Source: Bacteroidia bacterium (GTDB taxonomy: Bacteria > Bacteroidota > Bacteroidia > B-17B0 > Aurantibacillaceae). Taken from it: a stretch of 64,000 nt of DNA. This document shows positions 56,263 through 60,980 of this stretch, piece after piece. Both the position numbers and the translations under genes were made by a program. Below the pieces are notes generated by a model, which was not told the origin of the DNA, made no database searches, and worked only from the letters and a program-made list of their open reading frames with translations. The number at the start of each line of letters is the position of its first letter. Within the stretch, counting starts at the first letter, position 1. The stretch is from the NCBI GenBank assembly GCA_016787785.1, contig JAEUTO010000008.1:1-64000 (forward strand), written 5' to 3'.

Positions 56263-57984
56263 ATGGAAAATTTTATAGTATCGGCCCGTAAGTACCGCCC
56301 ACAGCTCTTTAACACAGTTGTTGGTCAAGGCCATATTACAAATACTTTAAAAAATGCCATTATCAACAAACAGCTGGCGCAGGCCTATTTGTTCTGCGGG
56401 CCTCGTGGTGTGGGCAAAACAACCTGTGCCCGTATCTTTGCCAAAACGATCAACTGCTTTAATATCAACGCAAACGGTGAGGCTTGTGATACCTGCGATT
56501 CATGCACTTCCTTTAATTCCGGGGCTTCATTAAATGTTTATGAGTTAGATGCGGCAAGTAATAACTCTGTTGAAGATATCCGTAATTTAGTTGACCAGGT
56601 GAGGTTTGCTCCTCAGTTAGGCGAATACAAAGTATATATCATTGACGAGGTGCACATGTTGAGCACTGCCGCTTTTAATGCGTTTTTAAAAACGCTTGAA
56701 GAGCCTCCTAAACATGCTAAGTTTATTTTAGCTACTACAGAAAAGCATAAGATCATTCCAACTATACTTTCACGTTGCCAGGTATTTAATTTTAACCGTA
56801 TTAAAACGGATGATATAAGCTCACACCTTGCCTTTATGGCAAAAGAAGAGCATGTTACCTTTGAGCCGGAAGCTTTGCATGTGATCGCGCAAAAAGCTGA
56901 TGGTGGTTTACGCGATGCTTGCTCTATATTTGATCAGATGGTTGCTTTTACCGGAAACCATTTGACTTACAAGCAGGTTGTAGAAAATTTAAATGTTTTA
57001 GATTACGACTATTATTTTAAAATAACAGATTGCTTTTTGAGTCAGCAAATGCCTGAAATCATGCTCACTTTTGATGACATTTTGAAAAAAGGATTTGACG
57101 GGCACAATTTTTTAATTGGTTTAGGCGAGCATTTACGAAATTTATTAGTAAGCAAAGATCCGCAAACCATTTCGCTTATTGAAGTTAGTGATGCACTTAA
57201 GAAGCGTTATGTAGAGCAATCGCAAAAATGCAACCTCACTTTTTTATTGAAGTCATTAGCTTTAATAAGTAAAACAGATGTAAATTACAAAAGCGCCAAG
57301 AACCAACGCCTGCTCGTTGAAATGGCACTCATGCAACTCACTTTTTTAACCGCGTCGCCAGATGCGGAAAAAAAAAATGATGAGTTAGAAACTTTATTCG
57401 AGAAAAAAGCGGAAACAGAACAAACAACCGCTACTGCTGCATCCACTTTTAATGCTTCACAAAATCCAGAAATTAAACTGGCAACTAAACCAAGCGTATC
57501 GTTTGACCAGCTAAAAATAAAATCTGCTTTCAGTTTAAACGAGACAAAGACAAATTACACAAATAAACCTATTGAGTCTGCCCTTAATGCAACCGAGGAC
57601 ACCCCAAAAGAAGCGAACAAAGATGTGACCATTGATGATGTTAAAAGTGTAATAGCAACCTATGCTGCCAATAAACACAAAAGTGGTGCAAAACAAATAG
57701 CAACTACTTTATCGATGGCGCAAATAAATTTTTCAAATAAGACCATTACTTTAAATATTAATAACGAATCGCAGAAAGAGACTTTGATGGAGATCAGACA
57801 ACAATTTTTGGATGAACTCCGCAAATTACTTTGCAATAATTTAATTAGCCTGGAGATAGCAACTACTGTTAGCGAAGCTCAGGCCAAAGCCTTTAAACCT
57901 ATTGATATATTTAAGAATATGGCCGAAAAAAATCCGGCCCTCCTAGAGCTAAAAAAACGTTTCGATTTAGAAATAGATTACTAA
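56263..57984 (+). CDS. dnaX: DNA polymerase III subunit gamma/tau
   Basis: 573 residues. The AAA+ clamp-loader ATPase has the P-loop GPRGVGKTTC (46-55), zinc-binding cysteines CDTCDSC (about 75-81), Walker B DEVHM (about 128) and the sensor SRC (about 170). Domain III ends near residue 366. A Lys/Glu/Thr-rich linker and a tau-type C-terminal domain follow. It loads the beta clamp and couples polymerase to helicase. Immediately after domain III, codons 369-372 contain an A10 run (57368-57377). In the -1 frame two TGA codons follow at once, and the +1 frame stops within 12 nt, so slippage would give a 372-residue gamma-like form. Confidence 0.96.
   Translation: MENFIVSARKYRPQLFNTVVGQGHITNTLKNAIINKQLAQAYLFCGPRGVGKTTCARIFAKTINCFNINANGEACDTCDSCTSFNSGASLNVYELDAASNNSVEDIRNLVDQVRFAPQLGEYKVYIIDEVHMLSTAAFNAFLKTLEEPPKHAKFILATTEKHKIIPTILSRCQVFNFNRIKTDDISSHLAFMAKEEHVTFEPEALHVIAQKADGGLRDACSIFDQMVAFTGNHLTYKQVVENLNVLDYDYYFKITDCFLSQQMPEIMLTFDDILKKGFDGHNFLIGLGEHLRNLLVSKDPQTISLIEVSDALKKRYVEQSQKCNLTFLLKSLALISKTDVNYKSAKNQRLLVEMALMQLTFLTASPDAEKKNDELETLFEKKAETEQTTATAASTFNASQNPEIKLATKPSVSFDQLKIKSAFSLNETKTNYTNKPIESALNATEDTPKEANKDVTIDDVKSVIATYAANKHKSGAKQIATTLSMAQINFSNKTITLNINNESQKETLMEIRQQFLDELRKLLCNNLISLEIATTVSEAQAKAFKPIDIFKNMAEKNPALLELKKRFDLEIDY
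57368..57377 (+). other. A10 slippery run in dnaX (candidate gamma/tau frameshift site)
   Basis: Ten A residues follow GCGG (57364-57367) in codons 369-372. In frame 0 they encode Glu-Lys-Lys-Asn. One extra A, or a -1 ribosomal shift, gives Lys then TGA TGA (57378-57383). The +1 frame reads AUG AUG AGU UAG. Confidence 0.7.
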
Positions 57985-58013: not shown

Positions 58014-60980
58014 ATGATGAATAACAAACTAAACTTCTTTCTTGTTGCTTTATTGTTAACGTTTTTTTCATTTGCACAAACACCCGTAAAAAAAAATAAA
58101 CAATTAGGTAACGCAACTCCAATTGCCGATCTTAAACAAGCCGGCTTAAATTATGAATATGCTTTGAACGATCCGTTAAAAACACGTATCTACACGTTAA
58201 AAAATGGAATGAAAGTGTATTTATCAGTTTATAAAGACGCACCACGTATTCAAACATTTATTGCAGTTAAAGCCGGAAGTAAGAATGATCCGCCAAACGC
58301 AACGGGCCTTGCACATTATTTGGAACATATGGTGTTTAAAGGTACCGATACCTACGGAACAAAAGATTTTAAAAAAGAAGAAGCGGAGATAAAAAAGATA
58401 GAAAATCTTTACGAAGTATATCGTCAAACAAAAGATGAAGCAAAACGCAAGATCATTTATCACCAGATTGATAGCGTAAGTGGTGTTGCGGCAAAGTACG
58501 CGATAGCAAACGAATATGATAAAATGCTTGCCACCATTGGTGCAGATGGCACTAACGCATTTACTTCTTTTGATCAAACCGTTTATGTTAACGACATTCC
58601 GGCCAACCAAATTGACACCTGGCTAAAGATAGAGGCTGAACGCTTTCGCAAACCTGTTCTACGCTTGTTTCATACAGAGTTAGAGGCCGTTTATGAAGAA
58701 AAGAACCGAAGTCTTGATAATGACAATGATAAAGTTTACGATGCCATCATGTCTGGTCTTTTTAAAAATCATACTTACGGCACACAAACTACCATCGGCA
58801 CAATCGATCATTTAAAAAACCCCTCACTTATCGAGATAAATAAATTTTACAATAAATATTACGTTCCAAATAATATGGCCATTATTATGAGCGGTGATTT
58901 TGATCCCGATAAAGTAATTATAGATATTGAAAAACATTTTGGAAGTTACGCTGCAAAACCCGTAGAAGACTACAGTTATAAACCCGAAGAACCTATCACG
59001 TCAAAGATCGTAAAAACGGTTGTAGGCCCCGATCCTGCAAGTGTTAACCTGGCCTGGAGAACTGCCGGCGAAGGAACAACTGATGCTGATATGGGTGATC
59101 TAATGGCTGCAATATTGTATAATGGTACCGCAGGTTTGATGGACATTAATTTAAACCAGGCGCAAAAAGTATTAAACAGCAATAACATCTTTTACGTTTT
59201 AAAAGACTATGCCATGTTTGGTATGACTGGAGAACCTAAACAAGGGCAATCATTAGAAGAAGTTGAACAATTACTTTTAAGTCAAATTGAATTGGTAAAA
59301 AAAGGAGAGTTTCCTGATTGGTTATTGCAAGCCGTTATTACTGATCTAAAACTCAGAAAAACAAAAGAACTCGAACAAAATTCTTCACGCGCTTTCGAAA
59401 TGCTGGATGCTTTTGTAAATAATATTAAATGGCAAAAATCTGTTGATAGAATAGAACGTATCTCAAAGATCACAAAAAAAGAAATAGTTGATTTCGCAAA
59501 TAAGAACTTTACGAATTCAAATTACGTTGCAGTGTACAAAAAAACAGGTGAGAATGCTCCAGCTGAAAAGGTTGTAAAACCTGCTATTACGCCAATTGAA
59601 GTAGACAGAGATCACTCTTCGAAATTCGTTCAAACCATTAATGCAGCAGTGCCTTCAAAAATAGAACCCAAGTTCTTAGATTATGAAAAAGATATTTTAA
59701 AATCAACTTTAAAATCCAATATCCCACTTTTATACAATAAAAATAACGAGAATAAATTATTTGAATTGTATTACAAATTTGAGATGGGTAAAAACAACGA
59801 CAAGTTGTTGCCTATTGCAGTTAAGTACATTCCTTACCTTGCCACAGAAGGAATGGATGCTGCAAAGATCAAACAGGAATTCTATCGTCTGGGCTGCTCT
59901 TTTAACGTTTTTAGCGACGGCGACAATACCTGGATAAGCCTGGTTGGCTTAAATGATAATTTTGAAACAGCATTAAAATTATTTGAGAAAATACTCGATA
60001 AACCTGTAGTGGATGAAACTGTCTTAAAGAATTTATTGGCAGACATTATCAAATCACGCAACGATCTTAAGTTACAAAAAGAAGTAATTTTACATTCTGC
60101 TATGCTTAATTACGCGCGTTTTGGCGCTGTTAACCCTTTTACTTACCTGTTAACTGAAGAGGAGATTAATAAAATAACTACAACCGACATTAAGAACAAG
60201 ATAAAGTCATTAATAAGCTTTGAGCATCGGGTTTTATATTACGGACCAAGTGAATTGGAAGAGGTGAAATCGATGGTAAATTCGTATCACAATGTACCTG
60301 AAAAATTATCAGCAATACCTCCCACGTATAATTTTGTAGAAAGAACACTTGATAAAACAGTGTATGTAGTGGACTTTGATATGACACAGGTTGAAATACT
60401 GATGCTCTCAAACGGAATAAAATATGACCCAAACAACGTTCCTGTTATTGCATTATATAATAATTATTTTGGCGGAGGAATGAGCAGTATTGTTTTCCAG
60501 GATCTCCGCGAATCAAAAGCTCTGGCTTATTCAACAGGTTCGGGTTATAGCGCGCCAAATAAGTTCAATAAAAACTATTTTAATAGTTCGTACATCGGTT
60601 CGCAAGCCGACAAGCTGAGTGAAGCAATGAAAGGCCTTAGCGATCTTTTAAATAACATGCCAAGATCTGAAGCTGGCTTTAACTCTTCGAAAGAATTGAT
60701 ATTACAGGAAATGAGGACACACCGTGTAACCAAATCGGATATATTCTTTAATTACCTGTCTGCAGAAAACATGGGTAACAAAATAGATATTCGAAAAGAT
60801 ATTTATCAAAAAGTTCAAAATTATAAATTTGAGGATATAGAGAAATTCCAAAAAGAGAATGTTAAGGGCAAGCCTGTTACAGTATTGGTATTAGGAAAAA
60901 AAGAAAATTTGGATCTAAAAGTTCTTGAAAAATATGGAACGGTTAAATTTTTAACGTTAAAAGAAGTATTCGGATATTAA
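58014..60980 (+). CDS. Two-domain M16 (insulinase-family) zinc peptidase
   Basis: 988 residues. Signal peptide (LLLTFFSFAQ, to about 21), then an N-terminal M16 domain with the inverted zinc motif HYLEH (101-105) and the third ligand Glu within LEAVYEEKNR (about 222-232). The second M16 half (from about 560, FLDYEKDILK) lacks the HxxEH motif, as usual for the inactive half, but retains the Arg/Tyr substrate-grip region near RESKALAYS (about 838-846). Two-domain M16 proteases act in the periplasm or secretome to degrade small peptides. The gene follows dnaX by 29 nt and ends 20 nt before a hairpin. Confidence 0.93.
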   Translation: MMNNKLNFFLVALLLTFFSFAQTPVKKNKQLGNATPIADLKQAGLNYEYALNDPLKTRIYTLKNGMKVYLSVYKDAPRIQTFIAVKAGSKNDPPNATGLAHYLEHMVFKGTDTYGTKDFKKEEAEIKKIENLYEVYRQTKDEAKRKIIYHQIDSVSGVAAKYAIANEYDKMLATIGADGTNAFTSFDQTVYVNDIPANQIDTWLKIEAERFRKPVLRLFHTELEAVYEEKNRSLDNDNDKVYDAIMSGLFKNHTYGTQTTIGTIDHLKNPSLIEINKFYNKYYVPNNMAIIMSGDFDPDKVIIDIEKHFGSYAAKPVEDYSYKPEEPITSKIVKTVVGPDPASVNLAWRTAGEGTTDADMGDLMAAILYNGTAGLMDINLNQAQKVLNSNNIFYVLKDYAMFGMTGEPKQGQSLEEVEQLLLSQIELVKKGEFPDWLLQAVITDLKLRKTKELEQNSSRAFEMLDAFVNNIKWQKSVDRIERISKITKKEIVDFANKNFTNSNYVAVYKKTGENAPAEKVVKPAITPIEVDRDHSSKFVQTINAAVPSKIEPKFLDYEKDILKSTLKSNIPLLYNKNNENKLFELYYKFEMGKNNDKLLPIAVKYIPYLATEGMDAAKIKQEFYRLGCSFNVFSDGDNTWISLVGLNDNFETALKLFEKILDKPVVDETVLKNLLADIIKSRNDLKLQKEVILHSAMLNYARFGAVNPFTYLLTEEEINKITTTDIKNKIKSLISFEHRVLYYGPSELEEVKSMVNSYHNVPEKLSAIPPTYNFVERTLDKTVYVVDFDMTQVEILMLSNGIKYDPNNVPVIALYNNYFGGGMSSIVFQDLRESKALAYSTGSGYSAPNKFNKNYFNSSYIGSQADKLSEAMKGLSDLLNNMPRSEAGFNSSKELILQEMRTHRVTKSDIFFNYLSAENMGNKIDIRKDIYQKVQNYKFEDIEKFQKENVKGKPVTVLVLGKKENLDLKVLEKYGTVKFLTLKEVFGY

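Follow-up and report, generated by a model that had tools for sequence, protein, structure and literature searches.

Evidence for a probable slippage site at the gamma/tau border of dnaX in Bacteroidota

Within the window, a 64,000-nucleotide stretch of DNA from an Aurantibacillaceae genome (GenBank assembly GCA_016787785.1, contig JAEUTO010000008.1), the dnaX gene carries ten consecutive A residues at the very point where the clamp-loader domains end, with stop codons waiting in both other frames. The question raised by this locus is whether the run allows a single gene to yield two products, a gamma-like and a tau-like DnaX, and if so by what means.

The dnaX gene of the window and its A10 run

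Identification of the gene as dnaX is provided by the NCBIfam models PRK14971 (745.3 bits, cut-off 685) and TIGR02397 (435.8 bits, cut-off 250), and no second full-length dnaX match was found in the 4.6-Mb genome. Tau is encoded in one uninterrupted frame, and the features of the locus are as follows:

56263-57984, plus strand: dnaX, full-length tau-like open reading frame of 573 aa, above the cut-offs of PRK14971 and TIGR02397
56263-57378, plus strand: part encoding clamp-loader domains I-III, residues 1-372, common to both products (Pfam domains; predicted fold)
57368-57377, plus strand: A10 slippery run, codons 369-372 (GAA AAA AAA AAT), from the sequence; at least A9 at 210 of the 250 junctions
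57378-57383, plus strand: TGA TGA, the first two -1 frame codons after the run, which would end a 372-aa gamma with one extra A in the mRNA
57377-57388, plus strand: +1 frame ATG ATG AGT TAG, which would end a 374-aa gamma with one A fewer in the mRNA
57364-57609, plus strand: linker, residues 368-449, predicted disordered and beginning at the run (AlphaFold2, pLDDT below 50)
57631-57963, plus strand: tau-only C-terminal domain, residues 457-567, predicted folded (AlphaFold2)

Codons 369-374 read GAA AAA AAA AAT GAT GAG, and Pfam places DNA_pol3_delta2 at residues 22-180, the ATPase lid at 185-231 and gamma3 (domain III) at 236-371. The original prediction had located ten A residues directly after the clamp-loader domains, at codons 369-372 of 573, and the end of domain III at residue 371 bears this out. 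Its reading of the neighboring frames was equally accurate: TGA codons occupy 57378-57380 and 57381-57383 in the -1 frame, and a TAG lies at 57386-57388 in the +1 frame. The further claim that slippage in either direction yields 372 residues held for one extra A and failed for one A fewer, for which 374 residues are predicted. Over the range of run lengths, the predicted products are 371 aa for A8, 374 for A9, 573 for A10, 372 for A11, 375 for A12 and 574 for A13, and the predicted masses are 41.9 kDa for the 372-aa product, 42.1 kDa for the 374-aa product and 64.3 kDa for the full product.

An AlphaFold2 model of DnaX, built on a 40-sequence alignment, is folded to approximately residue 361, disordered from 368 to 449 and folded again from about 457 to 567. 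Its C-terminal part is composed of helices and strands, with block pLDDT values of 83-90 up to residue 530 and 61-77 beyond, and its best matches among solved structures are E. coli clamp-loader chains, with about 360 columns aligned. Given these predicted boundaries between folded and disordered parts, the linker starts at the run, and the short products would therefore end with the clamp-loader module. A separate run of nine A residues is present at 58088-58096 of the window, in the early part of the following gene (58014-60980), which is peptidase-like by eye.

Conservation of the run, its flanking stops and the split relatives

Conservation was assessed across 250 dnaX junctions, comprising 38 from the genus (the window gene, L001, included), 43 from the rest of the family, 80 from named contigs and 89 from a phylum sample; the latter, which leans to near kin, consists of 60 of 60 same-class junctions and 29 from better-scoring others, read out of 245 matching genomes. 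The 81 own-family junctions were read from 87 genomes, among which G006, G042, G045, G056 and G068 gave no dnaX match and only weak hits to other proteins. Rows were excluded where they represented other AAA proteins (L002-L005), a C-terminal fragment (L126), a match ending at residue 324 at a contig edge (L168), or duplicates of the L031 genome (L127) and of the window (L169).

In 210 of these 250 genes the end of domain III is marked by a run of A9 to A13 (A9 in 21, A10 in 171, A11 in 16, A12 and A13 in one each), while border runs of A8 occur in none, A7 in two and shorter runs in 38. The run of nine or more is found in 81/81 genes of the own family, 63/80 on named contigs, 56/60 of the same-class sample and 10/29 outside the class, and it persists after thinning of the set to below 80% identity (87/120) or below 70% identity (56/79). 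The device is thus not universal, 40 of the 250 genes and most of those from outside the class being without it. Elsewhere in domains I-III of the collected genes, over 260 kb, no A9 or longer and two A8 were found, and the 530 nt downstream of the run contain five runs of A9 or longer in 130 kb.

Within the family, all 81 junctions show an uninterrupted G followed by A10 or A11 in one common phase, and none contains a synonymous AAG interruption. In 31 own-family genes with no net indel, residues 369-371 each have a single codon spelling, while the other residues between 356 and 385 are spelled by 3-20 codons each, so that the expectation of a run kept amid varying flanking codons was met by the relatives. 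In the same 31 genes, AAG is present in some genes at 15 of 16 other conserved lysine columns, the exception being column 30. Over the 210 run-bearing genes the run is found in each of the three codon phases (148, 41 and 21 genes), which indicates that nucleotides rather than a peptide are being kept.

The stops that flank the run are similarly conserved. Here the tau frame was defined as that open for at least 100 codons after the run, control positions were taken further down the same genes, and 37 of the 40 run-less genes served for comparison, three of the 250 being without a clear tau frame. Both non-tau frames close within six codons in 182 of the 210 run-bearing genes, as compared with 685 of 4200 control positions (16%) and 3 of 37 run-less genes; after thinning to below 80% identity the figure is 67/87. 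Considered separately, a stop falls within six codons in 203/210 genes for the frame at -1 to tau (control 44%) and in 188/210 for that at +1 (control 37%). Among single-frame genes, both stops fall within six codons in 35/35 from the genus, the +1 stop thus included in every one, and in 27/27 from the rest of the family. The -1 stop beside the run, which relatives were expected to retain, lies within two codons in 34 of the 35 genus genes.

While tau is encoded in one uninterrupted frame in 145 of the 210 run-bearing genes, the other 65 are split at this point, with gamma in the zero frame and tau in the -1 frame (61 genes) or the +1 frame (four genes). Among cultivable relatives, Chitinophaga terrae DSM 23920 (L079) has a single-frame gene with A10, and Halpernia humi DSM 21580 (L109) a split gene with A11. 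Splits within the genus are those of G007 and G030 (A10, -1) and G003 (A11, +1), and the rest of the family contains 16 more. Domains I-III of G003 are 99% identical to those of the window DnaX. Both L031 (G003) and L148 (G058) have A11 instead of A10 and tau in the +1 frame, a state that is either real or a homopolymer assembly error.

Several observations describe the part of these genes that follows the run. In the group coded f5 g15, 14 of 14 sampled genomes carry a split dnaX, and in eight of these split genes the tau frame opens with (A/V)EQFIIPP after the run; by eye, FIIPP is encoded in frame 0 in single-frame relatives such as L198. The tau-only part of split genes shows an excess of third-position substitutions, with counts at codon positions 1, 2 and 3 of 1347, 1032 and 2750 in these eight genes and of 1281, 1040 and 1751 in six own-family split genes. 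Within the first 12 codons after the run, the eight genes give 16, 53 and 67 substitutions, an excess weaker at position 2 than coding predicts.

Separate translation of the tau part from its own start is unlikely for most split genes, since the first tau-frame ATG, present in 62 of the 65, lies at a median of about 98 codons past the run, and 55 of the 65 have no tau-frame start codon between -20 and +40 nt of the gamma stop. A separate start is possible in the ten that do have ATG, GTG or TTG in this interval (L031, L089, L091, L108, L115, L148, L214, L218, L220 and L226) and in three more with a start codon further upstream of the gamma stop (L077, L150 and L201). Tau is expected to be needed by the replicase. 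Judging from their sequences, split genes could hardly make it without slippage.

The two layouts have been exchanged repeatedly. On a FastTree tree of domains I-III, whose weak inner support and long-branch warnings make all of the following counts rough, at least 27 layout changes are found among 208 run-bearing rows, with nine within the family and one within the genus. When the set is restricted to the 169 genes with exactly A10, a subset that removes homopolymer miscounts, at least 21 changes are found, where shuffled labels give a mean of 45.8 and a least value of 37. The A10 run itself is kept in 54 of the 65 split genes (54 of the 169 A10 genes on the tree).

Probable slippage by RNA polymerase and its alternatives

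The run very probably makes both gamma and tau by slippage, and we would place at roughly 80% the probability that it is a programmed site at which RNA polymerase stutters, in the manner of Thermus. The comparison shows the sequence itself, its conservation, the stops on both sides and the split relatives; that slippage occurs, that it is transcriptional, how strong it is and that the cell uses gamma are inferences. RNA polymerase would stutter on the A10 tract and give rise to dnaX mRNAs with 9, 10, 11 or more A residues, of which those with 10 (or 13) would be translated into a tau-like DnaX of 573 or 574 aa. Any other run length would lead to a stop within four codons and to a gamma-like DnaX of 371-375 aa that keeps domains I-III without the linker and the tau-only C-terminal domain. 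As slippage would fill all frames, the choice of templated frame would matter little, and this would account for relatives that swap tau in frame for gamma in frame while the run stays. RNA polymerase slippage would likewise explain the length threshold, the two-sided closure and the free codon phase.

Such a scheme has precedents. In Thermus thermophilus, dnaX is described as undergoing transcriptional slippage on A9 (PMC1088944). The window gene resembles that of Thermus in carrying tau in a single frame, in having an A-run ahead of the tau-only part and in the nearby stops of both other frames, while it differs in having A10 rather than A9, in belonging to another phylum and in having relatives that flip to gamma in frame. 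The DNA of the window gene shows the Thermus-type features of at least nine A residues at the end of the clamp-loader domains, near stops on both sides and an uninterrupted tau.

A second precedent is the set of 17 two-ORF dnaX genes from 12 genera in which tau requires a -1 shift (Antonov et al., 2013; PMC3711429). In the text available from that study, 12 of the 17 have poly-A, nine of them A10, programmed transcriptional realignment is suggested, and the three named species, with 7-9 A, belong to Chlorobium and Chloroherpeton (PMC3711429). Bacteroidota may be among the nine species with A10. The -1 split relatives found here are of the same type. Gamma in the zero frame, with tau reached by a frame change, is the layout of 65 of 210 run-bearing genes; the window gene is single-frame. 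The text available from that study contains no mention of the run in single-frame genes of Bacteroidota, of repeated flips or of +1 splits (PMC3711429), and nothing further on slippage or frameshifting in dnaX or the clamp loader of Bacteroidota was found in the literature searched by title and abstract start. The window gene thus joins the known slippage-type dnaX genes, whose distribution is wider and more fluid than we found described: the type extends to most Bacteroidota sampled, and the templated product has been swapped many times while the run stays. Split dnaX genes are easily annotated as truncated, and none of the 17 two-ORF genes is reported to be annotated as such in RefSeq (PMC3711429).

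A further paper states that a single nucleotide can interchange the roles of gamma and tau when efficiency is about 50%, and that the place of gamma in E. coli has long been disputed (PMC5009743). The layout swaps constitute a natural test of that idea of role reversal, and our findings suggest that gamma is under selection in Bacteroidota.

How, then, might the run act otherwise? The alternative that survives best, and which we nonetheless regard as unlikely, is that the ribosome slips by -1 on A_AAA_AAA within the run, producing gamma in the window gene and tau in split relatives. Like E. coli dnaX with its -1 ribosomal frameshift (RF00382), the window gene would produce gamma from the gene for tau, with the change falling at a similar point of the protein. 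An A10 run would hold a slippery A-heptamer in any phase, 61 of the 65 splits need the -1 shift that ribosomal slippage would also give, and 11 of 87 genes have a Shine-Dalgarno-like 5-mer in the 25 nt upstream, as compared with one of 87 in a control stretch, by a pattern that missed the E. coli signal. Yet a ribosome needs seven A residues, and the observed threshold is 9-10, with no A8 and two A7 among the 250 junctions although A7 would do; the +1-to-tau frame is closed as well; and there are four +1 splits, two of which, with A11, are possible miscounts. A ribosomal shift in the -1 direction only accounts less well for closure of both frames than does two-sided slippage.

Nor does the window run share the slippery heptamer or the hairpin of E. 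coli dnaX. It is followed by T and so lacks the A_AAA_AAG heptamer, and it has no stable hairpin after it: the rank of the downstream structure within its own gene is 0.93 for the window, with a median of 0.51 over 87 genes and thus no enrichment, as compared with 0.05 for the E. coli control. This in-gene rank was used in place of a z-score test, in which the E. coli control reached only -0.76 and which was therefore powerless. The Rfam DnaX frameshift element RF00382 was absent from the window gene and from two split relatives, while the E. coli control scored 96.8 bits. With a threshold of 9-10, both frames closed, splits in both directions and no hairpin enrichment, the evidence leans to transcriptional over ribosomal slippage.

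It is very improbable that the run is instead a mutational hot spot or phase-variation tract, the length of which is altered by DNA polymerase slippage and whose split genes are broken or recently mutated. Homopolymers are indeed mutable and prone to assembly error, 16 of the 250 sites have A11, a length that explains the +1 splits of G003 and G058; against this, 171 of the 210 runs are exactly A10, the split genes largely keep that length, whole clades such as f5 g15 share the split state, and split genes retain a long tau frame with its third-position excess. Least credible of all is that lysine codons happened to form a homopolymer beside chance stops, a reading which, common as off-frame stops are (a given frame is closed by the sixth codon at 44% and 37% of control positions), is rejected for the gene family by the conservation of the run while phases and encoded residues differ, by the off-frame stop controls, by the codon spelling and by the thinned sets, in keeping with the original view that tract and double stop argue against chance.

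The A10 run alone proves nothing about function. The 4.6-Mb genome has A10 at 12 positions, in 11 runs, as against about 938 expected from a first-order Markov model of the window, and only two of the 11 are interior to a sense frame of at least 150 codons, that of dnaX and an A11 run in a gene of the GH3/beta-lactamase family. Of the other nine, three begin such a frame or nearly so, within codons 1-7, one is antisense to a frame of this kind and five touch none. Seven other genomes have from 7 to 163 A10 positions each, and avoidance of A10 is thus dependent on lineage; the case for function therefore rests on conservation rather than rarity. Runs are commoner inside genes of G001, a member of the same genus, where, among 20 runs examined (of 32), seven fall within an open frame of 120 codons or more and four at the edge of one, and the notion that every A10 within a gene is programmed was rejected accordingly. 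One of those seven runs of G001 is situated in a frame that is biotin-ligase-like by eye.

A border UAG in Bacteroidales and a run in a second gene

Three dnaX genes without an A-run (L076, L102 and L112) present another arrangement, in which gamma ends at 366-367 aa with TAG and the same frame continues for 189-254 codons to the tau C-terminus. In the Bacteroidales family of L102's genome, 117 of 121 genomes have a dnaX match and 47 of these 117 matches contain exactly one TAG, which was at the gamma/tau border in all 30 of the 47 loci read; G417 also has the border TAG, its match having ended earlier and so being listed without a stop. These 30 together with L076 and L112 give 32 UAG loci (range L340-L369 plus L076, L102 and L112). 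All 32 share the context TAG-AT[TA]-GCN-AG and a tau frame of 186-254 codons, and their final tau stop is TGA in 25, TAA in five and TAG in two. Counted from the T of TAG, a CA[CT][GA][GA] motif begins 26, 27 or 29 nt downstream; 25 loci have it in codon phase 2 and seven in phase 0, and its occurrence in two phases points to RNA rather than peptide.

With a permissive finder and no null, 32/32 loci allow a candidate hairpin, three to five pairs long, after the UAG. It showed no excess stability relative to synonymous recoding (0/32 at the 5% level) and no significant covariation (140 of 500 shuffles reach the observed value), and for these loci RNAalifold gave no structure and Rfam no relevant family. 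A model of the element built from 22 loci and run on 61 genomes, with 103 candidates scored per genome, gave six matches, one per genome and all at dnaX, and missed two TAG-bearing genomes of the 61 (G339 and G382).

On the sequences, readthrough of the UAG would be the simplest reading of these loci, its rival being reinitiation at AUU or AUA. Reassignment of TAG to sense is unlikely, as stretches of at least 150 codons in the 32 loci, counted roughly in six frames, end with TAG in 111 cases, TGA in 101 and TAA in 68. Relatives in the same family show other layouts: in L383-L388 gamma ends soon after an A9 or A10 run, as read from the gamma end, and in L370-L377, from relatives of the UAG-bearing genomes, dnaX is one uninterrupted frame with neither UAG nor an A-run above four and apparently makes tau only. 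On balance, we incline slightly to the view that Bacteroidota meet a constant requirement for both gamma and tau by interchangeable devices, either the widespread A10 slippage, with a templated frame that drifts between the two, or, in part of one Bacteroidales family, UAG readthrough that replaces the run and would constitute a third way beside slippage and ribosomal frameshifting. If true, the UAG version would be a case, in a bacterial replication gene, of stop-codon readthrough whose 3' context is conserved. No UAG readthrough for dnaX is described in the titles and abstract starts searched, nor did the literature search yield a paper on stop codon readthrough in Bacteroidales. In three other Bacteroidales dnaX genes without A9 or longer, L099, L379 (G430) and L380 (G447), gamma ends, with TAA in the first and TAG in the other two, and is followed by a long open stretch in a different frame.

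The other interior run of the window genome is located as follows:

G000 C6:409081-409091, minus strand: A11 run in the GH3/beta-lactamase-family gene, L262

This run lies between a GH3_C match (residues 282-442) and a beta-lactamase-family match (residues 484-837), 856 residues having been read of a 980-codon frame. Matches to the gene were found in 77 of 87 genomes, and 50 loci (L270-L319) were collected, of which 48, the window genome's included, were read and two (L301 and L305) left out. In these own-family fusion genes a run of A9-A12 is present near the domain border in 29 of 48 and A4-A7 in 19, and three of the 29 run-bearing genes are split at the run, two to -1 and one to +1. Elsewhere in the fusion genes there is one A9 in 74.6 kb. 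Stops close both off frames within six codons in 22 of the 29 run-bearing genes, as compared with none of the 19 run-less genes and 213 of 1120 control positions. To judge by these patterns, the run appears to be the same device, here in a second protein of two domains.
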